Assembly: GCF_963675165.1 (NCBI RefSeq)
Contig: NC_087378.1
Coordinates: forward strand, 6,505,205 to 6,569,204
Reading direction: 5' to 3'
Origin: Halichondria panicea
Lineage: Eukaryota > Porifera > Demospongiae > Suberitida > Halichondriidae
DNA: 64,000 nucleotides
Shown here: positions 2,122 to 44,100 of the stretch, one piece after another
How positions within the stretch are numbered: the stretch's first letter is position 1
Layout: each line of letters opens with the position of its first letter
Translations under genes and position numbers: made by a program
The notes under the pieces: model-generated
Database searches by the model: none
Told to the model about the DNA's origin: nothing
What the model saw: the letters and a program-made list of their open reading frames with translations, nothing else

Positions 2122-5100
2122 CTAATAATGCCTCCTCGTACATGATGGAGTACGTCCAGACCAGTAACCGTTACCCTGGCAAAATCGGACTGCATAACCA
2201 CTCAGCTGGTAGCCATTAAAACAGCCGTAGAATGCTTTGGAACCAGGTGTAGTGGTCCAGAACTTGACAATTCCGTAGCTTGGCTTGGGTGGACGGCCAC
2301 AGTCCACACCTGCATGTACAAATTGTAGTACAGATTATTTGTATACACTGCATGAGGGTTCATATAGGCAGGTCTGAACTGACAAAAATGCATGTAAATA
2401 TTGCTGTGCCTCCATCCCCATCAAAAGTGGCTAATTTTGCCTATCAAATGAGAATCAATAATTCTATGCATGGTAGAATGAGGTCAAATTAAAAATCGCC
2501 ACATAATCATACATGTACTTCAATTGCCTCATTTTTGTCGCTATATGGTATCTTATGAGAAATTTATCTAAATGCTTGTCACAAGTGGTGTAATCTGATT
2601 GTTTTACTGAGAGGTCCCTTATAAAATGCTTGTCACAAATGGTGCAATCTGATTTGGTTACTGAGAGGTCCCTTATTTCACTTAGAGACCTCAGCAGAGG
2701 TCTTCTACAGAGGTCCATTATATGTACTTGCCTAACTATGATACGTACGTTTACAAAGAGGTGCTTTTCCAGACCACTCTCCGTTGGCCTGGCACGTCCT
2801 CGTCGTTCCAAACAATGTGAATCCCTTGTTACAGGAATATTCGGCAGTGGAGGACGGAGTTAGACCAGTGACTGTCACCTGACCATACTCAGGGTCATCC
2901 AGCTTAGGACAGATGATAGCTGAATCAAAATGAGCAAACGGCATGTGATGTGAGGAAAACTTGCATTGGTATCTACATTTGATCCGATTGTAAAAGAAGT
3001 CATACCTTTGCAGATAGGTACCTCTCCAGCCCAGCTGCCGTCCTTCTGACAGAGTCTCTTGCTGGATCCCACCAACCTGAACCCATAGTTACAGGTGTAC
3101 TTTGCTATGGTTCCTGGCAGATTGTCTCCGTCATCCACAGATCCGTTCTCTGGATCCTTCAATGCAGGGCATTCGATCTCTGTACAATATGTTTCATAAC
3201 ACATGCAGTAAAGCAATTGTATAGTCTTACGTTCGCAGATAGGTGCATCCCCAGCCCAGCTGCCATAATTCTGACAGAGTCTCTTGCTGGATCCCACCAA
3301 CTTGAATCCATAGTAACAGGTGTACTTTGCTATGGTTCCTGGCAGATTGTCTCCATCATCCACATATCCGTTCTCTGGAGCCTTCAATGCAGGGCATTTG
3401 ATCTCTGTACGATATATTTTATAGCACATCCAGTTATCAAGCAATTGTAGTCTTACGTTCGCAGATAGGTGCCTCCCCAGCCCAACTGCCGTACTTCTGA
3501 CAGAGTCTCTTGTTGGATCCCACCAATCTGAATCCGTAGTAGTCACAGGTGTACTTTGCTATGGTTCCTGGCAGATTGTCTCCATCATCCACAGATCCGT
3601 TCTCTGGATCCTTCAATGCAGGGCATTCGATCTCTGTATGATATGTTTCACCAATTATTATCCTTTCCGTACAGCAATTGTAGTCTTACGTTCGCAGATA
3701 GGTGCTTCCCCAGCCCAGCTGCCATAATTCTGACAGAGTCTCTTGCTGGATCCCACCAACTTGAATCCATAGTCACAGGTGTACTTTGCTATGGTTCCTG
3801 GCAGATTGTCTCCATCATCCATATATCCGTTCTCTGGAGCCTTCAATGCAGGGCATTTGATCTCTGTACGATATATTTTATAACACATCCAGTTATTAAG
3901 CAATTGTAGTCTTACGTTCACAGATAGGTGCCTCCCCAGCCCAGCTGCCGTACTTCTGACAGAGTCTCTTGTTGGATCCCACCAATCTGAATCCGTAGTA
4001 GTCACAGGTGTACTTTGCTATGGTTCCTGGCAGATTGTCTCCATCATCCACAGATCCGTTCTCTGGATCCTTCAATACAGGGCATTCGATCTCTGTACGA
4101 TATGTTTCATAACACATGCAGTAAAGCAATTGTAGTCTTACGTTTGCAGATAGGTGCCTCCCCAGCCCAGCTGCCATAATTCTGACAGAGTCTCTTGCTG
4201 GATCCCACCAACTTGAATCCATAGTCACAGGTGTACTTTGCTATGGTTCCTGGCAGATTGTCTCCATCATCTACAGATCCGTTCTCTGGATCCTTCAATA
4301 CAGGGCATTCGATCTCTGTAGGATATGTTTCATAAAACTATTATCCTTCCGTAAAGCAATTGTAGTCTTACGTTCGCAGATAGGTGCCTCCCCAGCCCAG
4401 CTGCCATAATTCTGACAGATTCTCTTGCTGGAGCCCACCAACTTGAATCCATAGTCACAGGTGTACTTTGCTATGGTTCCTGGCAGATTGTCTCCATCAT
4501 CCACAGATCCGTTCTCTGGATCCTTCAATACAGGGCATTCGATCTCTGTACGATATGTTTCATATTCATAACACATGCAGTAAAGCAATTGTAGTCTTAC
4601 GTTTGCAGATAGGTGCCTCCCCAGCCCAGCTGCCATAATTCTGACAGAGTCTCTTGCTGGATCCCACCAACTTGAATCCATAGTCACAGGTGTACTTTAC
4701 TATGGTTCCTGGCAGATTGTCTCCATCATCCACATATCCGTTCTCTGGAGCCTTCAATGCAGGGCATTTGATCTCTGTACGATATATTTTATAACACATC
4801 CAGTTATTAAGCAATTGTAGTCTTACGTTCGCAGATAGGTGCCTCCCCAGCCCAGCTGCCGTACTTCTGACAGAGTCTCTTGTTGGATCCCACCAATCTG
4901 AATCCGTAGTAGTCACAGGTGTACTTTGCTATGGTTCCTGGCAGATTGTCTCCATAATCCACAGATCCGTTCTCTGGATCCTTCAATACAGGGCATTCGA
5001 TCTCTGTACGATATGTTTCATAACACATGCAGTAAAGCAATTGTAGTCTTACGTTTGCAGATAGGTGCCTCCCCAGCCCAGCTGCCATAATTCTGACAGA

Positions 5101-6499
5101 GTCTCTTGCTGGATCCCACCAACTTGAATCCATAGTCACAGGTGTACTTTGGTATGGTTCCTGGCAGATTGTCTCCATCATCTACAGATCCGTTCTCTGG
5201 ATCCTTCAATACAGGGCATTTGATCTCTGTAGGATATGTTTCATAAAACTATTATCCTTTCCGTAAAGCAATTGTAGTCTTACGTTTGCAGATAGGTGCC
5301 TCCCCAGCCCAGCTGCCATAATTCTGACAGATTCTCTTGCTGGATCCCACCAACTTGAATCCATAGTCACAGGTGTACTTTGCTATGGTTCCTGGCAGAT
5401 TGTGTCCATCATCCACAGATCCGTTCTCTGGATCCTTCAATACAGGGCATTCGATCTCTGTACGATATGTTTCATAACACATGCAGTAAAGCAATTGTAG
5501 TCTTACGTTTGCAGATAGGTGCCTCCCCAGCCCAGCTGGCATAATTCTGACAGAGTCTCTTGCTGGATCCCACCAACTTGAATCCATAGTCACATGTGTA
5601 CTTTGCTATGGTTCCTGGCAGATTGTCTCCATCATCCACAGATCCATTCTCTGGATCCTTCAATGCAGGGCATTCGATCTCTGTACGATAATTGTGTTTC
5701 ATAACACATCCAGTTATTAAGCAATTGTAGTCTTACGTTCGCAGATAGGTGCCTCCCCAGCCCAGCTGCCGTAATTCTGACAGAGTCTCTTGCTGGATCC
5801 CACCAACTTGAATCCATAGTCACAGGTGTACACTGCCTTGGTTCCGGCACGATTGTTACCATCATTCACAGTACCATATGCAGGGGGAGCCAGTTTAGGG
5901 CAGAAGAGTGCTGTACCAAAAACCAAAAAATATAATCTTTCACTGTTATTCACAATAGAAACAACCACTCACATTTACAAACAGGTGGAACATGGGACCA
6001 TTTCCCGTTGAGCTGGCATTTTGCTGTAGAGCTGCCTACGAGGGTGAAATGTCTGCCACAGGTATAGGTTGCCTTTGATCCAGGTGTATTTCCAGTCACG
6101 TCTACATCTCCATATTGGGGATCGATAAGGTCAGGACACGTGATACCTGCATAGAATGTATATAGCAGTTTGGGGTTATTAATGATTGCCCGTAAATTTA
6201 CTTAGTAACTCACGCTTGCCGCAAACTGGAGTGTCAAACTTCCACACTGCCTTTCTTAGGCTCCGGCTGTAGATACATTTGGTAAAACTGTATCCTTTCA
6301 GCAAAAAGCCATCTCTGCAAGAGAACCTAACAACAGTTCCAATTGAGTAGAAGTTTTTCTGAGGGTAGAAACTTCCGTAATCTGGAGTATCAGGGGGGCC
6401 ACAGGGAGAAAGGTAGGTAGCAGAGCTCAGATACACAAAGGACAGCACAACTGCAATCAACATCATAATGGACGCCATGTTTGCAAAAGTGATGGTCAA
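2122..6499 (-). CDS. Secreted protein of 17 CCP/sushi modules (first copy)
   Basis: Seventeen exons can be drawn, all joined in phase 1, giving 1029 aa: 6214-6499 (signal peptide plus CCP1), 5973-6146, 5737-5910, 5507-5680, 5284-5457, 5053-5226, 4827-5003, 4601-4774, 4372-4545, 4142-4315, 3916-4092, 3690-3863, 3457-3633, 3231-3404, 3006-3179, 2749-2919, 2122-2309 (stop TAG). Each internal exon is 171-177 bp and encodes one module with four cysteines and the late Trp (CPxL, YTCDYGF, LCQNYGSW, PIC). Introns inside the array are only about 45-60 bp. The start is ATG at 6499, or 6478 (MASIMMLIAVVLSF), giving a clear signal peptide. No membrane anchor or catalytic domain follows. CCP-only proteins bind ligands or regulate complement-like cascades in animals; a specific role here is unknown. 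The gene is head-to-head with an MTMR9 copy. Three exons carry an extra codon (DYYGF). Confidence 0.85.
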
Positions 6500-9235: not shown

Positions 9236-9519
9236 ATAAGGTTATACTGATAAGGCAACATTGATATGGCATCACTCTTATGGCATCACTCTTATAGCAC
9301 CGTTTTGTGTACATAGTCTTATAGAACGTACTTTATTTTTGGTGTTGCCTTATTACATGTATATACAATGTAGCTGCAGTTCTAAGAATTGTTCCATACA
9401 CTATGTTACTACAGCCAGTATATGTGACGTAAGATTGGAGGAATGCTTTTTGTGTACAGTCTATTGGAGTTGCGTTCTCTTCCTAATGAACTCTTGACTG
9501 TACTTATCCAATGCTATCA

Positions 9520-10486
<967 letters not shown>

Positions 10487-14541: not shown

Positions 14542-17132
14542 CTAATAATACCTCCTCGTACATGATGGAGTACGTCCAGACCAGTAACCGTTACCCTGGC
14601 AAAATCGGACTGCATAACCACTCAGCTGGTAGCCATTAAAACAGCCGTAGAATGCTTTGGAACGAGGTGTAGTGGTCCAGAACTTGACACTTCCGTAGCT
14701 TGGTTTGGGTGGACGGCCACAGTCCACACCTGCATGCACAAATTGTAGTACAGGTTATTTGTATACACTGCATGAGGGTTCATATAGGCAGGTCTGAACT
14801 GACAAAAATGCATGTAAATATTGCTGTGCCTCCATGCCATCAAAAGTGGCTAATTTTGGCAATGCTATCAAATGAGAATCAGACGGTTCAATCATTGGTA
14901 GAATGATGGTCAAATTAAAAATCGCCACATAATCATACATGTACTTCAATTGCCTCATTTTACCGCTATATGGTATCTTGTGAGGAATTTACTATAAATG
15001 CTTGTCACAAATGATGCAATCTGATTGGTTACTGAGTGGTCCCTTACTTCACTTAAAAATGCTTGTCACAAATGGTGCAATTTGATTTGGTTACTGAGAG
15101 GTCCCTTATTTCACTTAGAGACCTCAGCAGAGGTCTTCTACAGAGGTCCATTATATGTGCTTGCCTAACTATTATGTAAACCTACGTACGTTTACAAATA
15201 GGTGCTTTTCCAGACCACTCTCCATTGTCCTGGCATGTCCTTGCCGTTCCAAACAACGTGAATCCCTTGTTACAAGAATATTCGGCAGTGGAGGACGGAG
15301 TTAGACCAGTGACTGTCACCTGACCATCCTCAGGGTCATCCAGCTTAGGACAGATGATAGCTGAATCAAAGTGAACAAACAGCATGTGATGTGAGGAAAA
15401 CGTATCACAGTTGATCCGATTGGAATGACTATCTATAGTTGATCTGATTGCAAAAGAAGTCATACCTTTGCAGATAGGTACCTCTCCAGCCCAGCTGCCG
15501 TCCTTCTGACAGAGTCTCTTGCTGAATCCTACCAACCTGAATCCATAATCACAGGTGTACTTTGCTACGGTTCCTGGCAGATTGTCTCCATCATCCACAG
15601 ATCCATTCTCTGGATCCTTCAATGCAGGGCATTCGATCTCTGTACGATATGCTTCATAACACATGCAGTTATTACATAAAGCAATTGTATAGTCTTACGT
15701 TCGCAGATAGGTGCCTCCCCAGCCCAGCTGCCATACTTCTGACAGAGTCTCTTGCTTGATCCTACCAACCTGAACCCATAGTCACAGGTGTACTTTGCTA
15801 TGGTTCTTGGCAGATTGTCTCCATTATCCACAGATCCATTTTCTAGATCCTTCAATGCAGGGCATTTGATCTCTGTACGATATGTTTCATAACACATGCA
15901 GTAAAGCGATTGTAGTCTTACGTTCGCAGATAGGTGCCTCCCCAGCCCAGCTGCCATAATTCTGACAGAGTCTCTTGCTGGATCCCACCAACCTGAATCC
16001 ATAATCACAGGTGTACTTTGCTATCGTTCCTGGCAGATTGTCTCCATCATTCACAGATCCGTTTTCTGGATCCTTCAATGCAGGGCATTTGATCTCTGTA
16101 CGATATGTTTCATAATACATGCAGTAAAGCGATTGTAGTCTTACGTTCGCAGATAGGTGCCTCCCCAGCCCAGCTGCCGTAATTCTGACAGAGTCTCTTG
16201 CTGGATCCCACCAACTTGAACCCATAGTCACAGGTGTACTTTGCTATGGTTCCTGCCAGATTGTCTCCATCATCCACAAATCCATTCTCTGGGTCCTCAA
16301 GATTAGGGCATTTGATCACTGCAAAATCATTCTGCTCTCATGACATACAAATCTTATGCTGTGTAAACATACATATGCAAGTTGGGGCTTTTCCACTCCA
16401 TGTACTATCCAGCTGACATTTCCTAGAGCTCTGCCCACTTATTTCAAAACCATCGTTACAGGTGTACACTGCCTTGGTTCCGGCACGATTGTTACCATCA
16501 TTCACAGCACCATATGCAGGAGGAGTCAGTTTGGGGCAGAAGATTGCTGCACCAAAAACCAAGAATACGATCCTTCTCTGTTATTTTCACAATAGAAACA
16601 ACCACTCACGTTTACAAACAGGTGGAACACTGGACCATTTTCCGTTGAACTGGCATTTTGCTGTAGAGCTGCCCACGAGGGTGAAACGTCTGCCACAGGT
16701 ATAGGTTGCCTTTGATCCAGGTGTATTTCCAGTCACGTCTACATCTCCATATCGGGGATCGATAAGATCAGGACACGTGATACCTGCATAGAATGTAGCA
16801 GTTTGGGGCTATTAATGATTGCCCGTAAATTCGCTTAGTAACTCACGCTTGCCGCAAACTGGAGTGTCAAACTTCCACACTGCCTTTCTTAGGCTCTGGC
16901 TGTAGATACATTTGGTAAAACTGTATCCTTTCAGCAAAAAGCCATCTCTGCAAGAGAACCTAACAACTGTTCCGATTGAGTAGAAGTTTTTCTGAGGGTA
17001 GAAACTTCCGTAACTTGGAGCATCAGGGGGGCCGCATGGAGAAAGGTAGGTAGCGGAGCTCAGATACACAAAGGACAGCACAACTGCAATCAACATCATA
17101 ATGGACGCCATGTTTGCAAAAGTGATGGTCAA
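14542..17132 (-). CDS. Secreted protein of 9 CCP/sushi modules (second copy)
   Basis: Nine phase-1 exons give 562 aa: 16847-17132 (signal peptide plus CCP1), 16610-16783, 16373-16546, 16145-16318, 15922-16095, 15699-15872, 15466-15639, 15190-15360, 14542-14729 (stop TAG). The first exon, the penultimate and the last are near-identical to those of the 17-module paralogue. The difference is in the middle, where the other copy has eight more modules. CCP3 here has a distinct second half (NDGFEISGQSSRKCQLDSTW), lost or replaced in the longer paralogue, so this shorter gene may be closer to the ancestral form. Each module keeps four Cys and the Trp. There is no transmembrane segment. It is head-to-head with intact MTMR9, about 1 kb away. 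Confidence 0.87.
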
Positions 17133-35461: not shown

Positions 35462-37784
35462 CTAAGTGCCATACTGATTCCTAGCCAAGGCTGGAGGCAG
35501 TTTACTAAGAGTGTCAGTCCACGATCTCTCTACTAAAACCAGTTCCTTCCCTCCAAAGGGTCCCGCAAACAACACCGCTCCTCTGTTCGACGTTACAAAT
35601 CGTAATCGAAGTGGTGGCCCTTCAAACAATCTCTCTTTTCTCTTTCCTTTGCTACTGCTTTCTTCTATGGTCTCTTTCGCCTGTGAGCCACCGCCACGTA
35701 CAAGCACAACACAGTCATTATCATACACAGCAAATACGTCTTCTCTTTTTGGAACTTGTACTAGACCATTCGGGGAGGACAACTTGAAACGGCCTTCGTA
35801 TTTTCTATCCAAAGCAACGTATCCAACCACCTTCAAGTGCTTGTCAGCAAACTTGAACGAGCAAAGTGTTTTTTCTGCACCTATAAATAGAACGAGACTA
35901 TCGCATGATCGAGTGAACGTAAACAGTGTAGGTCCAGGGTCCAGTCGAGGCACTTTACACATTACATCACCAGATTCAAGGTTACAGATGATTATTCGCT
36001 TTGTGTTACTTGAGAGTGCCACCAATTTACTATCAGAGCTGACTTCAAAATTTGTGAAGGGTTGATGTGGTTTAGCCTTAGCTTGGATAGTTCTTGCATT
36101 CTCCGTATCGAATTTCGATGTATCAACAACTTTGACTCCACTGTCTATTGTGGCAAGCACCAGGTATTGGCCATCTGGAGTGAACCCCATTTTGTAGCAT
36201 GGGAACTGTGTCTCCTGCACACAAACAACGTTTAGATTTCTGTGGTTGATATTGTATAGCCACAGGCGATCAACAGTCGATAAGGCAACATTGGTAGCAT
36301 CAGCTGACATGGTACTGCTCAGAATGTGTTGAGGTTCTTTGCACTTGATCTCAAGAAAGTTTTTCGGGACACCATTTGTACAGTGAGGTAGTGGAGCTGG
36401 GATGCTCTCTTGAACATTCACCTCACCAATCGACGAGAGGCTTGTTTGGGGGGACTGATCTCCACGATCCCCATTACTGGTAGGGAGAGATTCAGTAGCG
36501 GAGGCAGTTGACTTGAGCCTGTGTTGGATACTCAATTGCCAGAATCGTAGCGACATACTGCTTTGATGAACCAGAACGTTGGCACTGTTAGCGACTGTGA
36601 AAAATCGAGAGCTGTCGGGGATAGGGTGATGTCTGTTGATGGCCTTAATGTCGAGGCTACTTGTTGGGCACGTTATGAGCTGAGTGTCGACACCTCCAGA
36701 AGCTATCAGTTGGGTATTGGAGAGAGCTAGAGCTCTGATATCGTGAGTGTGTGCTCGTACATTTTCACATTTAAGCCACTTGCTTTTGTCAGATGCTTTC
36801 TTGAGACAAACTATTTTCTGATCGACACCAGCTGAGTAGATTTCATTCTCTTCTTTGTTGACAGCCAAACTGAGCACATCAGCACTGTGTATGGTGTGCG
36901 AGTGAATAAGGGTGCCTTGCCGACTATTCCAAAACTGAACCTTCCCGAGAGAATCGGCACTTACAATTGTCGAATTGCTCAGAAATTTGAGATCCCAAAC
37001 TAGCGTGTTCCGTGATTTGTACTCATCAAGCGTGATTCGTAGGATGCAGCGACCGGTTTTGATGTCTAGTTTCCGTATAATGCTGTCAGCCCCTCCTACC
37101 GCCATGTACTGACTGTCGGGGTGCCAAGCAAGGGAGAGGACACGCCCTTCTTGTTTGTCCAACCCACGGCTGAAGGAGAGGGAGCCAGAGGAGAGCTCAA
37201 ACAAACGTACCTGCAGAGAGAAACAAAGAGCATTTAAAAGTATAAACCAAAATTCACAACGCTTATTAACTATAAGAAATTAGAATACTTATAGTGCTAG
37301 AAATAAATGCCACAATGCCCCACCCACTTTATCTCATGGCAGACAATTTTTGATCTTACCTGGCCATCTTCTGATCCTACTGCCAGCATTGATCGCTCAG
37401 TGTTGGGTTGCATACACCATACAGCTCCTCCGAACGAGTCTATGGAGTGGAGAGGTCGCAGCCGAACCAGGTCCCATTCCAGTACAATACCTACAGAGAG
37501 CTTACTATAACAAACAATCCATGACAGTTTGTCCAGCTACCTGTGACCCCAGATGTGAAGAGCCTCCCAGAGCACCACACAAGGGTCTCCACAGAACCAT
37601 CAGCTCTTCCTGGAATCCATACATCTTTGAAGAAACATTCTCCATCAACGGTCCGCCATATCTCAATGCTACCGTCTCCACGCGATACTGCCAGTTGAGG
37701 AGAGCTTGAAGACTCATCCGAGAATGCCAAGCAGTGTATTGGCTGGGGCTCGTGCTCGATAAAACGAACTCTGTGAACATCCAT
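35462..37784 (-). CDS. UTP4: UTP4 / cirhin, WD40 protein of the SSU processome
   Basis: Three exons give 707 aa (human about 686): 37541-37784, 37360-37490, 35462-37210 (TAG). The N-terminus (MDVHRVRFIEHEPQPIHCLA) and successive WD40 repeats match cirhin: SRGDGSIEIWR, VGSEDGQVRLFE, GGADSIIRKLD, SADSLGKVQFWN, SAGVDQKIVCLK, then a second propeller to a C-terminus with GPPLRLRFVTSNRGAVLFAG. UTP4 belongs to the t-UTP/UtpA subcomplex needed for pre-18S rRNA processing in the nucleolus. One very large last exon is unusual for this intron-rich locus. It is divergent from RPS21 with 161 bp between start codons. Confidence 0.93.
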
Positions 37785-37945
37785 AGCTGCCTAGCTAGCT
37801 CAGCAGCCACGTGGTTGACACTGCACTGCGCATGCTCATAACCAAGGAAAAACACGTGGTCGATCTTTTCCTTGGTGGCTCCAGAAAGTAGAACTCTTTT
37901 AGAGACACTGTGAGTATATATATAGCTTTGTGACCAGTTAGAATT
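37785..37945. promoter_or_regulatory. Bidirectional promoter between UTP4 and RPS21
   Basis: Only 161 bp separate the two start codons, so a shared promoter is likely (inference). A pyrimidine-rich stretch (ATCTTTTCCTTGG, about 37863-37875) lies where the 5' end of RPS21 would be and could serve as a TOP-like start. No TATA box at a fitting distance is certain. Confidence 0.65.
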
Positions 37946-38481
37946 ATGCAGAACGAGGCAGGAGATGTTGTGGATGTCTACATTCCAAGAAAATGGTAAT
38001 CTCATGATGGAAACTAGCAAGAATTGTGATTAAATGATCTCTCCTCCAGCTCCGCTAGTGGGAGGATCATAGGAGCCAGGGACTATGCCTCTGTGCAGCT
38101 CAACATTGCTGATGTGAGTAGGGACTTCAAATCATCATTAGAGGCTCACGCATAAATAAACTATAGCACCATTAACCTCTGTCATGTCGTGTTTTAATAG
38201 TATGTAATCTCTCACTTCTCAGGTGGATGAGAAGACTGGTCGAGTGTCTGGAACGTTCAAGACATACGCTGTCAGTGGCTTCATCAGAGCAATGGTAAAT
38301 AATAAAAGTATGTGACGAACAATCTTGTCCACCCACACACCACACCCAGGGTGAGAGTGACGACTCTCTAAACAGACTTGGTGTTAAGGATGGCATTATT
38401 GGAGGGTAGGTCACATAGTAGTGTTGGTGTTTTATTGTAACCCTCTCTTTCCTCCCCTGCAGAGAACAAACACAGAACTAA
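37946..38481 (+). CDS. RPS21: Small ribosomal subunit protein eS21
   Basis: Five exons, 86 aa (human 83): 37946-37995, 38050-38113, 38223-38294, 38350-38405, 38463-38481 (TAA). The protein starts MQNEAGDVVDVYIPRKCSAS and continues RIIGARDYASVQLNIADVD, GTFKTYAVSGFIRAM, GESDDSLNRLGVKDG, matching eS21 along its whole length with a short divergent end (GEQTQN). It is a structural component on the solvent side of the 40S subunit. Confidence 0.95.
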
Positions 38482-38643: not shown

Positions 38644-40238
38644 CTATATACAAACAGTTCCAGAGTTGTTGGGTAGAGATTGATTTGTGGTAGGGACGAC
38701 AAGGCCTGATGTTTGTATCTCCAGGAACCCTGGGTTAACGGTCAGTGGGTACTCAAAATTACCATCACTGGTGTCTTTATTGGAGGTCACTTCTTTTGAT
38801 CGATCGCGTTTGCTTTTCAGACGATTCTTGAACCACTCCTCTGTCTGCAAGAATAGATATGCATACCTCCAATAAATCAACTGACACATTCAACCATTGA
38901 TTACCCCACCCTTTCCACTGCCTCTATGGTGATGGGATACTCGGTGTCACCCTCACTTTGCTTCACAGCGGCCCGCTCACTTTTTCGACGCTCATTCAAG
39001 AGCTTATCCTTCTTGCGACGGTTCTTGAACCACTCGTGTATCTAGAGTGCAAGGAAAGGAGTTCAAACAATCATCATTTACAGTGTTACATCTATTCAAA
39101 ACTATTTATTTATTAAAAAAATAGTCGCCTGAGGCTAACTGAGGGGTGGTCATCAATAAGAGTAACTGCACCACGCAATCCACACCTTATACATGGAGAG
39201 TCCAGTGATTCTGGCAATCCTCTCCTTCTCTGGCTGCCCCTCCTTGCGGAAGTTCTTGGCCATGATTTTGCTGACATAAGCAACCTCCAATACCTCTCTG
39301 ATCTCAGGCGTCAACGGTGTCCTGCAAAGCAGAGCAGAGAATGAAATACTAAGCATGGAAGCTTTACGGTCATAGCAAATAAACACTACTTCAAGGAGCG
39401 ATCTGATCACACACTAGCTATAGATAACCAGACTAGAAGCAAGCCACCCTAGACAAACGACAAAAGGCATAACTGACTCTATGCTAAACGGTACTGTGCA
39501 AGCACTCCCTAGAACTGCTAGACCCCATGAACACACACCTGGCATGCCTCACTCCACCAAGATGGTAGTGCCAGCCTGTCTTCTCTTTGGGAGGTTTTGT
39601 TCGAGGACGACCCACTTTTGACTTCTTAGCTACATCCTCCTCTGATGTAGCTTGGCTCTCAGTGGTTGCTACAGCAATGGTCACTGTAGAGTGCTGTCTA
39701 GAGCTGCTACTCGATGATGTCCGTGGCCGAGTGACCACACCCACCTCTTTGCTTGACAATTGAGTGAATTGTTCCACCTGTACACACATCAATTCTCATT
39801 ATAGTCTATAACAACATCCAGCAGCTTTCATTGAAGGCTGATCTAGCATGCAGTTTCTATTGGGGGGGAACATAAGGTAACATAACAACTGTACGTACAC
39901 GGGGAAAAGGTTGTGTTAGGTGGTAGGTACAATGAGTTTAATAATCCTAGTAAAAACACCATAGAGTTATAGGCTCTCACTTCCTGCATGCAAACACAGA
40001 CACTGCCTATACAGATAACCACCTGTAGTTTAGGGATGACCTCGAGTGAGTCTATGTTGCTAAGCATTTCAGCGAGAGAAGAAGAGCCAGATTCCATGTT
40101 GAGGATATTGTCTTGAGTTGGCGTGAGGTGTGTGGTGGTGGTGGTGATGGCAGTGTTACCGTGTGGAGCTGTCGTGTGGGTGTGTGTAAGATGTGGGGGG
40201 TGGTCAGACAATGACAGGTTTTGGGGTGTGAGATTCAT
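38644..40238 (-). CDS. Divergent homeobox protein with duplicated helix-3 exon
   Basis: Five phase-compatible exons, up to 307 aa: 40023-40238, 39539-39777, 39186-39321, 38910-39041, 38644-38844 (TAG). A Ser/Thr-rich N-terminus is followed by an AT-hook-like KVGRPRTKPPK. Exon 3 carries homeodomain helices 1-2 (TPLTPEIREVLEVAYVSKIM, then PEKERIARITGLSMYK) with about six extra residues in the helix 1-2 loop. Exon 4 supplies helix 3 (IHEWFKNRRKKDK, with the invariant W-F-x-N-R). Exon 5 again begins with a helix-3 sequence (TEEWFKNRLKSKRD) followed by a similar EYPLTV tail (exon 4: EYPITI). Both exons start in phase 0, so they could be used in series or exon 4 could be skipped. ATG 40238 is preceded by an acceptor-like CCACAG, so a 5' non-coding exon may exist. 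Class is unclear. Confidence 0.8.
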
Positions 40239-40369: not shown

Positions 40370-41000
40370 GAGTTCTTTGCCGACACAGCACACAAGTTTC
40401 CTACCTTTATCGCATCAGAAATTGAATTCTTTATTCCGTGACCCTTTTCTTTGCAGTAAAGATCATCACACAAGTTTCCTACCTATCTCATCAAAATAGA
40501 ATTCTGTATTCCCGTGACCCTTTTCTTTGCAGTAAAGATCATCACACAAGTTTCCTACCTCTATCTCATCAAAATAGAATTCTGTATTCCCGTGACCCTT
40601 TTCTTTGCAGTAAAGATCATCACACAAGTTTCCTACCTCTATCTCATCAAAATAGAATTCTGTATTCCCGTGACCCTTTTCTTTGCAGTAAAGATCATCA
40701 CACAAGTTTCCTACCTATCTCATCAAAATAGAATTTTGTATTCCCGTGACCCTTTTCTTTGCAGTAAAGATCATCACACAAGTTTCCTACCTCTATCTCA
40801 TCAAAATAGAATTCTGTATTCCCGTGACCCTTTTCTTTGCAGTAAAGATCATCACACAAGTTTCCTACCTCTATCTCATCAAAATAGAATTCTGTATTCC
40901 CGTGACCCTTTTCTTTGCAGTAAAGATCATCACACAAGTTTCCTACCTCTATCTCATCAAAATAGAATTCTGTATTCCCGGATCCTTTTCCTTGCAATCA
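40370..41000. repeat. Minisatellite of 76-78-bp units resembling mini-introns
   Basis: Seven good units (anchors CGTGACCC at about 40437, 40513, 40591, 40669, 40745, 40823, 40901) plus degenerate ends. Each contains CTTTTCTTTGCAGTAAAGAT, that is a polypyrimidine tract with CAG acceptor overlapping a GTAAAG donor. Units differ by presence or absence of CT (CCTACCTCTATC versus CCTACCTATC). It lies in the divergent intergenic region between the homeobox gene and ELP3. Confidence 0.92.
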
Positions 41001-41130: not shown

Positions 41131-44100
41131 ATGGGGAAGACCAAGAAGAAAGGTGATCTGCTTTAATAGACTGATTTACATTAATACCACACAGTTATTC
41201 ATTATGTGATGGCCCTCTATATAAAAGGTCGAAACCACTCCTTTTCTTTTAGGAAAGAGACTGGGCCAGCTGCCGTGTTGAGAGTTGTCCCCAGTGCGTG
41301 AACATTCTTCACGCTCCCACAAGAATGCAAACGTGCAAACGTCACAAATGCTCGTTCCACCGCCCACACGCTAACTATTGCAAGCCTTGAGTATATACAC
41401 ATCACTGGTGGTCTTTTATCGAGGTTAAAAGTAATATCACCCACGCATATTATGTACTTTGTGGTTTGTACTGATTGCATTCCAACGGGACAACTCTCAA
41501 CACGGCAGATGGCCGCCAGTCTCTTTCCCCCAAAAAGGGAGTGGCTGCTCAAGTCTAGGTTACCCTATTACTTAGACTTTACCATTAGTAGAAATAAGGC
41601 CTACATGCATGGCTATTTTGGGTATTAAAGGATCAAATGCCGATTAGGTAATCACGTCTCATGTTACCCTAACACAGAGGGGGAGGGACTACCAGTGGCC
41701 GAGCGTATGATGATGACCGTGGCTGAGATAGTGAAGCTGTTGATACAAGCCCATCACGAAGGGAGGGACGTTAACCTCAACAAGTGAGTCCCATGGCAAC
41801 ACAGTGGTCACTGAGCCTGGGTTAGCAACACCACCGTGCACAGCGGTCACTAAGCCTGGGTAGCAACACCACCGTGCACAGCGGTCACTAAGCATGGTAG
41901 CAACACCACCGTGCATAGTGGTCACTAAGCCTGGGTTAGCAACACCACCGTGCACAGTGGTCACTAAGCCTGAGTAGCAACACCATCGTGCACAGTGGTC
42001 ACTAAGCCTGGGTAGCAACACCACCGTGCACAGTGGTCACTAAGCCTGGGTAGCAACACCACCGTGCACAGTGGTCACTAAGCCTGGGTAGCAACACCAC
42101 CGTGCACAGTGGTCACTAAGCCTGGGTAGTCTCATGAATCAGCCGCCCTTCCACGGAGGTCTGTCTGAGCACTTTAGTACAAACTTTTTTGACCAGGTTA
42201 GAATTCCGACCTAACCCAATCAGATCAAAATTAAGAATGACAAGAAGCGTATGCGTTCTATACAGTAGGACGCATTTATAGCTAGCGCTAGTCAGTCTAA
42301 CTATGGATACTGTTAGCCGATCAAGGAGCTATAGTAAGTTGAGTTGACTGCACTATAGCTAGTCCTGTGCAACCTTTTTCTTTTTCTTTTAGGAACGTTC
42401 TTGGAGCAAGCCAAATAAAAATTCATAGATGCTAGTCAAGCGTTTGCGGTTGACCTTTTGCATGCGTTGGAAGTAATGGAATTCTTTTGGTTTTGACACT
42501 GACGTAGTGGACTAAAGTGCTCAGACTGAAAGGGCGGCTGATTCATGAGACTAAAGCCTAGACTCGCTGGCCACTCCCATCATCACTATCTTGAGGATTG
42601 GGACTGGTCAACTGCCAATCTGCGAGTTGTTCTTGTGGAATTTTAATTAGTTGTATGACATCATTTTGTGGTTTGTGCGGTTGACTAAAGTTGCGTAACT
42701 ATCAGGTGAATGTGGGTTATGTCCCGTGGTTTATCTAATACAACATAAGACCCAGCCCAACTACAACGAATTACGTGGGCGAAATATGTCACATGACAGT
42801 GCTTCTGCACTGTGATTGGTCATTACCGATTTCGGTATAATGAGAACAACTCGCAGATTGACAGTTGACCAGTCCCAATCCTCAAGATAGTGATGATGGG
42901 AGTGGCCAGCGAGTCTAACTAAAGCCTGGGTAGCTTACACTCATACTTCAACTTGTAATAATTTTACACTTAGTGTTTGTACTTTGATCATCCTACAGAC
43001 TCAAGGGTCAAGTGGCCAGCAAGTATGGACTCTCCTCTCAACCGCGACTGGTCGACATCATTGCAGCTGTTCCCCTGGCCCACAAGAAAACACTCCTCCC
43101 TAAACTGAAGGCCAAACCGATCCGCACTGCATCCGGTATCGCTGTGGTAGCAGTCATGTGCAAGCCTCATCGCTGCCCGCACATCACATTCACAGGCAAC
43201 ATCTGTGTGTGAGTAATTAGATTACACATACTCGTATAATTATGTGGCCTCAGAGATGATGAAAACATTTCCTCTTTAGGAGTTGTGGGCGTTGTGGGCA
43301 CTTTAAGGTAATGTTTTTTCCAGGAAATTGTGTGAGCAATTAGTTCTTAGTCCTTTGAAGAATCAATGACCCAAAATGCAACAGCTGCTATGTTAGAGTG
43401 GGTGTTCTGACTACATGTTCCAATTATGTGTGGGACTGTTCTAAAATGTCCCTTAAGGACATTGTGTAAAGTAATTATCTCTATTCCCAATGCCCCACCC
43501 ACCTCAGCTATTGCCCTGGGGGACCCGACTCTGACTTTGAGTACTCCACTCAGTCATATACTGGCTATGAGCCCACCTCCATGAGGGCTATCAGGGCACG
43601 CTACAATCCCTACCTTCAGGCAAAGCACAGAATCGAGCAGGTGCTAAAATTATGCAATAATAGGGAAAGGACTTTTATGAACGTACACGTATAGACAAGT
43701 TTTATGGGGTGCTGTTTTTGGTTAGTGGTGAAATATTCAATTGATGCTTGTAAGTCTTCAACTTGAGCCTTTGTGTGGACCGTATGTGTCATATATAATT
43801 ATGAGAGGTGAATACCGTATAGCGCGAAATTTTCGAGGCACTTATATTTCGTGGATTGGCCTCTAAAAGTATTTTCGTTGCACAATGTTCGCGGAATGAC
43901 TGCTTACCGGAAGCCACGCCTTTAAATCTTGCACGTTATAGCAGGTAAAGAACGATTTTCGTGGACTTAATTTTCGTGTAGGATTGCTACCCACGAAATC
44001 CACGAAAATTAAGCCCCTCGAAAATTTCGCGCTATACGGTAGCCAAAATTATGTTTAGTTGGCGGCGGTGGCTTAGCCTCGAATATGTTACTGTGGCCGT

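Follow-up and report, generated by a model that had tools for sequence, protein, structure and literature searches.

A duplicated recognition-helix exon in a homeobox gene of the sponge Halichondria panicea

A homeobox gene on the minus strand of the Halichondria panicea window (the whole stretch of 64,000 nucleotides analysed here) possesses two successive exons for helix 3, the recognition helix, of one homeodomain, and alignment of the two confirms a real and unusual exon duplication. Judged from sequence, the first of these exons (exon 4) would complete a working homeodomain, and the second (exon 5) would supply a weak twin with the same base preference, the pair having followed from duplication of the helix-3 exon. 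To this explanation as a whole we assign a probability of about 0.55.

Gene structure and the exon duplication

Five coding exons, following one another on the minus strand and separated exclusively by GT-AG introns, were read from the sequence; all gene coordinates given here refer to that strand. Exon 1 (coding part 40023–40238, ATG at 40238) has an acceptor-like CTCCACAG just 5′ of its coding part, which suggests an intron in the 5′ UTR. Exon 2 (39539–39777) encodes an AT-hook-like motif and the start of the homeodomain N-terminal arm. The first-pass annotation had spoken of an AT-hook; the AT-hook-like stretch KKSKVGRPRTKPPKEK is indeed present (39580–39627, with the core GRPR at 39601–39612), but exon 2 returned no Pfam match at E up to 10. 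Exon 3 (39186–39321) extends from R5 to position 44 of the homeodomain, providing helices 1 and 2 and a loop 1 with six extra residues, an insertion reported previously and borne out by the residue count from Y20 to position 28. Exon 4 (38910–39041; 132 nt, phase 0 at both ends) runs from a canonical helix 3 (IHEWFKNRRKKDK) to EYPIT. Beyond the 65-nt intron 4 (38845–38909), the terminal exon 5 (38644–38844; 201 nt) carries a second copy of helix 3 (TEEWFKNRLKSKRD) in which T45 and L53 occur, followed by EYPLT and a tail to the stop codon TAG. For exons 3 to 5, these boundaries coincide exactly with those originally proposed. An AATAAA located 3′ of exon 5 (38431–38436) is the most probable poly(A) signal. 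Codon scores ranked the true frame best of three in all five exons, by a narrow margin for exon 3, and, set against the open stretches found across the window, exons 4 and 5 had unexceptional scores (p about 0.15 for either exon).

Several other features of the window were recorded in passing. Downstream of the homeobox gene, the minus strand at 35462–37790 carries a gene that we take to encode a WD-repeat-type protein resembling UTP4/Cirhin, and plus-strand exons at about 38030–38315, presumably related to ribosomal protein S21, converge tail-to-tail on the homeobox gene. Immediately 5′ of exon 1 is a 78-bp tandem array (about 7.9 copies, 40389–40996), and a 38-bp array (about 8.7 copies) occupies 41800–42129. 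Two further arrays with units of 223–229 bp and a common consensus start occur at 2998–5871 and 15458–16321, the minus strand of which resembles, by eye, a Sushi/CCP module; a CA repeat of 966 bp (99% matches) spans 9518–10483.

As the first-pass annotation had observed, exons 4 and 5 share a phase-0 start with a helix-3 sequence and a downstream EYP-I/L-T motif; the common start is at homeodomain position 45, and both exons contain EWFKNR. The annotation's proposal that one exon arose by duplication of the other is upheld by local protein alignment, which scored 72, a value reached by none of 5000 shuffles (maximum 46); the two helices are related. The best DNA block is identical at 18 of 19 positions, a score equalled in none of 2000 shuffles. 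Chance likeness of the two exons was ruled out by these shuffles in combination with a genome-wide pattern control (see below), and at the sequence level the comparison demonstrates tandem duplication of the helix-3-bearing 3′ exon within a K50 homeodomain gene that carries an AT-hook-like motif. Across 36 aligned codons, nucleotide identity is 56%, with dS of about 1.1 and dN of about 0.60 overall. Since dN is low around helix 3 (0.17) and at EYPxT (0.21) and reaches 1.09 in between, two islands appear to have been kept while the remainder drifted; these divergence figures therefore point to an old duplication, with the two islands retained in each copy. Specifically, the EWFKNR codons keep 17 of 18 nucleotides, compared to 43 of 90 in the other aligned codons. 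The best six-codon window gave a permutation p of 0.033, and a Fisher p of 0.00017 for the islands is post hoc and too kind, the island statistics drawing on small numbers of sites, with 3.8 synonymous ones in the helix island.

Homeodomain identity and the residues of the two helices

The Pfam homeodomain profile (PF00046; cut-off 22.9 bits) scores 27.0 bits in a product joining exons 3, 4 and 5, and 29.2 bits in one that stops after exons 3 and 4. In addition, the 3-4 junction yields the key residues R5, L16, F/Y20, W48, F49, N51 and R53, and on profile score and key residues together exon 4 completes a canonical homeodomain. The 3-5 product scores 17.4 bits (E 0.0041), below the cut-off, and has Leu in place of R53 and Thr at position 45. 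Neither exon 4 nor exon 5 matched the Pfam homeodomain when searched as a single exon, as expected for helices so short.

Placement of the gene within a homeobox class was considered from several directions. SIX-class proteins have a SIX domain preceding a K50 homeodomain; K50 is present here, and no SIX domain occurs among Pfam matches at E up to 1. A tree of 25 homeodomains from the same genome and the two forms of this gene had support at 2 of 24 inner branches and carried long-branch warnings, so that no class is assignable from it; the two forms grouped loosely beside rows labelled SIX and TALE, subject to the same long-branch warning and to class labels of our own assignment. The rows derive from 30 loci of a Pfam scan, of which L028 and L029, being incomplete, were excluded and L030–L032 served only as second exons completing their partners; ten further matches of the scan had no locus, five of them second exons of joined rows and five unused. 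Among solved structures, the best match by sequence was DUX4 (E 8e-6 over 32 residues). DUX proteins have two complete homeodomains, and the gene here has a single exon 3, which matched nothing else in the genome at the search thresholds applied. The TALE superclass is described as having three extra residues in loop 1 (PMC4901127), compared to six here, and the Homeobox_KN profile fell short of its cut-off (20.9 vs 24 bits). These comparisons assign no class to the gene, which has K50 in its homeodomain and an AT-hook-like motif.

In W48 numbering, the exon 4 helix reads I45, H46, E47, K50, N51, R52, R53, K54, K55, D56 and K57, and the exon 5 helix T45, E46, E47, K50, N51, R52, L53, K54, S55, K56 and R57. 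E47, K50, N51 and K54 are thus identical, and the differences from exon 4 to exon 5 comprise I45T, R53L and positions 46 and 55–57. Homeodomain positions 47, 50, 51 and 54 make most base contacts, and position 53 holds the phosphate backbone. In each of the 25 homeodomains compared from the same genome, position 53 is Arg and position 45 is Val, Ile or Leu. Similarly, a human homeobox survey calls position 53 'almost invariably arginine', and raises the possibility that human SEBOX, with changes at position 53 and N51, is non-functional (PMC2211742). The substitution R159W of a helix-3 arginine in HESX1, which by our own count is homeodomain position 52, is reported to impair DNA binding (PMC5378840).

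Because exon 5 retains the residues at base-reading positions and has lost the near-universal R53, its use is more likely to weaken the protein than to re-aim it. With the hydrophobic residue at position 45 lost as well, and positions 47, 50, 51 and 54 kept, the 3-5 form should therefore recognise the same type of site but with weak binding or none, and the flanking changes in the helix could shift its base preference. The T45 and L53 substitutions would fit plain decay of exon 5 equally well as a regulated weak form. The first-pass annotation had suggested that skipping exon 4 would probably change the target site by swapping RRKKDK for RLKSKRD. That contrast is real, but it lies mainly outside the base-reading positions, and the identity of positions 47, 50, 51 and 54 between the helices led us to reject a target-site swap as the leading interpretation.

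Splicing options and competing explanations

Exon 3 can be joined in frame to either exon 4 or exon 5 without an internal stop, and frame-compatible alternative splicing, as first suggested, holds up in the predicted products. Joining exons 3, 4 and 5 gives 307 aa, joining exons 3 and 5 gives 263 aa, and reading from exons 3 and 4 into intron 4 gives 243 aa ending ...EAVERVG*, each without an internal stop. The last option, which was absent from the earlier description, arises if intron 4 is retained, whereupon translation stops after two codons (VG* at 38901; in-frame TAA at 38901–38903). The exon 4 donor (AGG/GTGGGG) has a score of 3.7, and 2 of 24 other donors score equally low; it lies within the top 12.5% of all GTs in the window. 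In a smaller comparison set (n = 14) it fell below all others, and the set of 24 gives the fairer figure, with the reservation that 10 of its donors came from 11 introns examined, that five of these were picked by eye among several candidate pairs, one such pick (GAT/GTTAGC) being one of the two donors that score as low as that of exon 4, and that two UTP4-like donors were placed by reference to the UTP4 protein. GTs within exon 4 at 38980 and 38956 outscore that at 38909 yet shift the frame. Eight other homeobox introns of the genome span 55–587 nt, and one has exactly 65 nt; intron 4 is therefore of ordinary length, and length is no bar to joining exons 4 and 5.

The option of using both exons in series, raised by the first-pass annotation, stands insofar as the 4-5 junction is in frame, but it requires the weak exon 4 donor. 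It is possible, if on balance doubtful, that all transcripts join exons 3, 4 and 5 constitutively, with the exon 5 helix a leftover within the 307-residue protein. Such use would suit the phase 0 at both ends of the 132-nt exon 4 and the ordinary intron length, and relaxed selection on a helix would be expected to produce changes such as T45 and L53; the near-intact EWFKNR codons, set against the other aligned codons, argue against it, as does the weakness of the sole in-frame exon 4 donor found. We consider it distinctly unlikely that the exons act as alternative last exons, with one form ending in intron 4 (243 aa) and the other in exon 5 (263 aa). The in-frame TAA lies directly after the weak donor, both frames are open as separate endings, and an AATAAA within exon 5 (38776–38781) could be a weak poly(A) signal for a transcript ending after exon 4; this hexamer, however, sits in coding sequence and may be due to chance, and none of five poly(A) hexamers sought occurs between the TAA stop and exon 5.

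Mutually exclusive use of the two helices to switch the DNA target, the model originally put forward, is highly improbable. Duplicate helix-3 exons do lie behind one donor in the same phase, and FOXP1 exons 18/18b provide an example of exons that change a forkhead motif (PMC11701043). However, positions 47, 50, 51 and 54 are identical, R53 is lost from exon 5 and the 3-5 form falls under the Pfam cut-off. Mutually exclusive exons are also required to be both internal and of similar length (PMC5740500); exons 4 and 5 have the homology, adjacency and common phase of such pairs, but differ in length (132 vs 201 nt), and exon 5 is terminal.

Our preferred explanation remains that of a working exon 4 homeodomain with a weak exon 5 twin. 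Whenever exon 3 is spliced to exon 4, the transcript would encode a working homeodomain regardless of the downstream part, and inclusion of exon 4 is probably the main form. If exon 4 were skipped, the product would have the same base preferences and much weaker DNA binding, and could compete for partners or serve as an attenuated factor. Regulated skipping of exon 4 is plausible. That the arrangement constitutes a built-in attenuator, in which exon choice gives either a homeodomain that binds DNA or a counterpart that shares its base-reading residues and lacks the phosphate-holding Arg53, seems to us rather unlikely.

Genomic context and relation to known systems

The 131-Mb assembly (39 contigs) was searched for copies of the gene and for similar exon pairs. 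No second copy was found in the genome, leaving no paralogue or second allele for measuring selection; the only further match was an ordinary homeodomain on contig C13 (E 0.49). The pattern TGGTTYMARAAYMG, which specifies WF[KQ]N and then the beginning of a codon for R or S, matched 93 times in the genome, compared to 40 for the reversed control. Same-strand pairs of matches no more than 5 kb apart numbered two: that of the homeobox gene (197 bp) and C2:5182889/5183977 (1088 bp), the latter consisting of the recurrent TGGTTCAAAAATAG spelling and coinciding with no Pfam homeodomain match of the genome scan. No comparable helix-3 exon pair was therefore detected elsewhere in the genome by this motif pattern, which misses other spellings and residues and so is not proof of uniqueness. 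The TGGTTCAAAAATAG spelling recurs on many contigs as opposite-strand pairs, often about 400–500 bp apart (e.g. C5:2470002/2470445), and these pairs probably represent a repeated element. A Pfam homeodomain scan gave 40 exon-level matches at E up to 1, from which the present gene is missing because its split homeodomain exons were searched separately; the scan may likewise have overlooked further split homeoboxes of divergent sequence. The range of homeodomain classes in this compact genome is in keeping with a sponge. Relatives were confirmed in 0 of 14 candidate stretches from viruses (viral_contigs) and 0 of 145 from prokaryotes (genome_contigs), both as expected for an animal gene. Separately, a Cpn60/TCP1-family gene was seen in several tandem copies on contig C15 at about 1.898–1.995 Mb, with one exon stretch matched four times.

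A doubled recognition-helix exon was not encountered among the matches listed in the open-licence literature; the closest precedents by analogy are unc-62 exons 7a/7b and FOXP1 exons 18/18b. In C. elegans, unc-62 (Meis/Homothorax) is described as having alternative exons 7a and 7b that exchange part of the homeodomain, with tissue-specific use (PMC3585033, PMC4448998), and a survey of worm homeobox genes attributes to UNC-62 two homeodomain isoforms through splicing (PMC4448998). The sponge gene resembles unc-62 in having candidate alternative exons for part of one homeodomain. However, unc-62 exchanges the N-terminal region of a TALE homeodomain, whereas here, in a gene not assigned to TALE, helices 1 and 2 stay constant and it is helix 3 that is doubled; by this analogy, the sponge gene is a mirror image of unc-62. 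FOXP1 likewise has a mutually exclusive exon pair that alters the DNA-binding domain of one transcription factor and its binding motif (PMC11701043), but there a forkhead with a changed motif is involved, and here a homeodomain whose residues at base-reading positions are unchanged. Homothorax and MEIS1 have homeodomain-less isoforms (PMC7392893, PMC3157405 and PMC13379096), comparable in that one gene gives forms without a working DNA-binding part; on these accounts the domain is absent from those isoforms, whereas in the 3-5 form it is present but predicted to be impaired. DUX genes, besides including the best structure match, resemble the present gene in having more than one homeodomain-derived piece, but their double homeobox comprises two homeodomains, and here the helix-3 exon alone is doubled.

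Splicing exchange of part of a homeodomain is already known from the worm TALE gene. If both junctions were used in the sponge, one gene would offer a natural test of the dependence of a homeodomain on Arg53, because the two forms agree at positions 47, 50, 51 and 54. Such use would also show exon duplication at work on a transcription factor of an early-branching animal.
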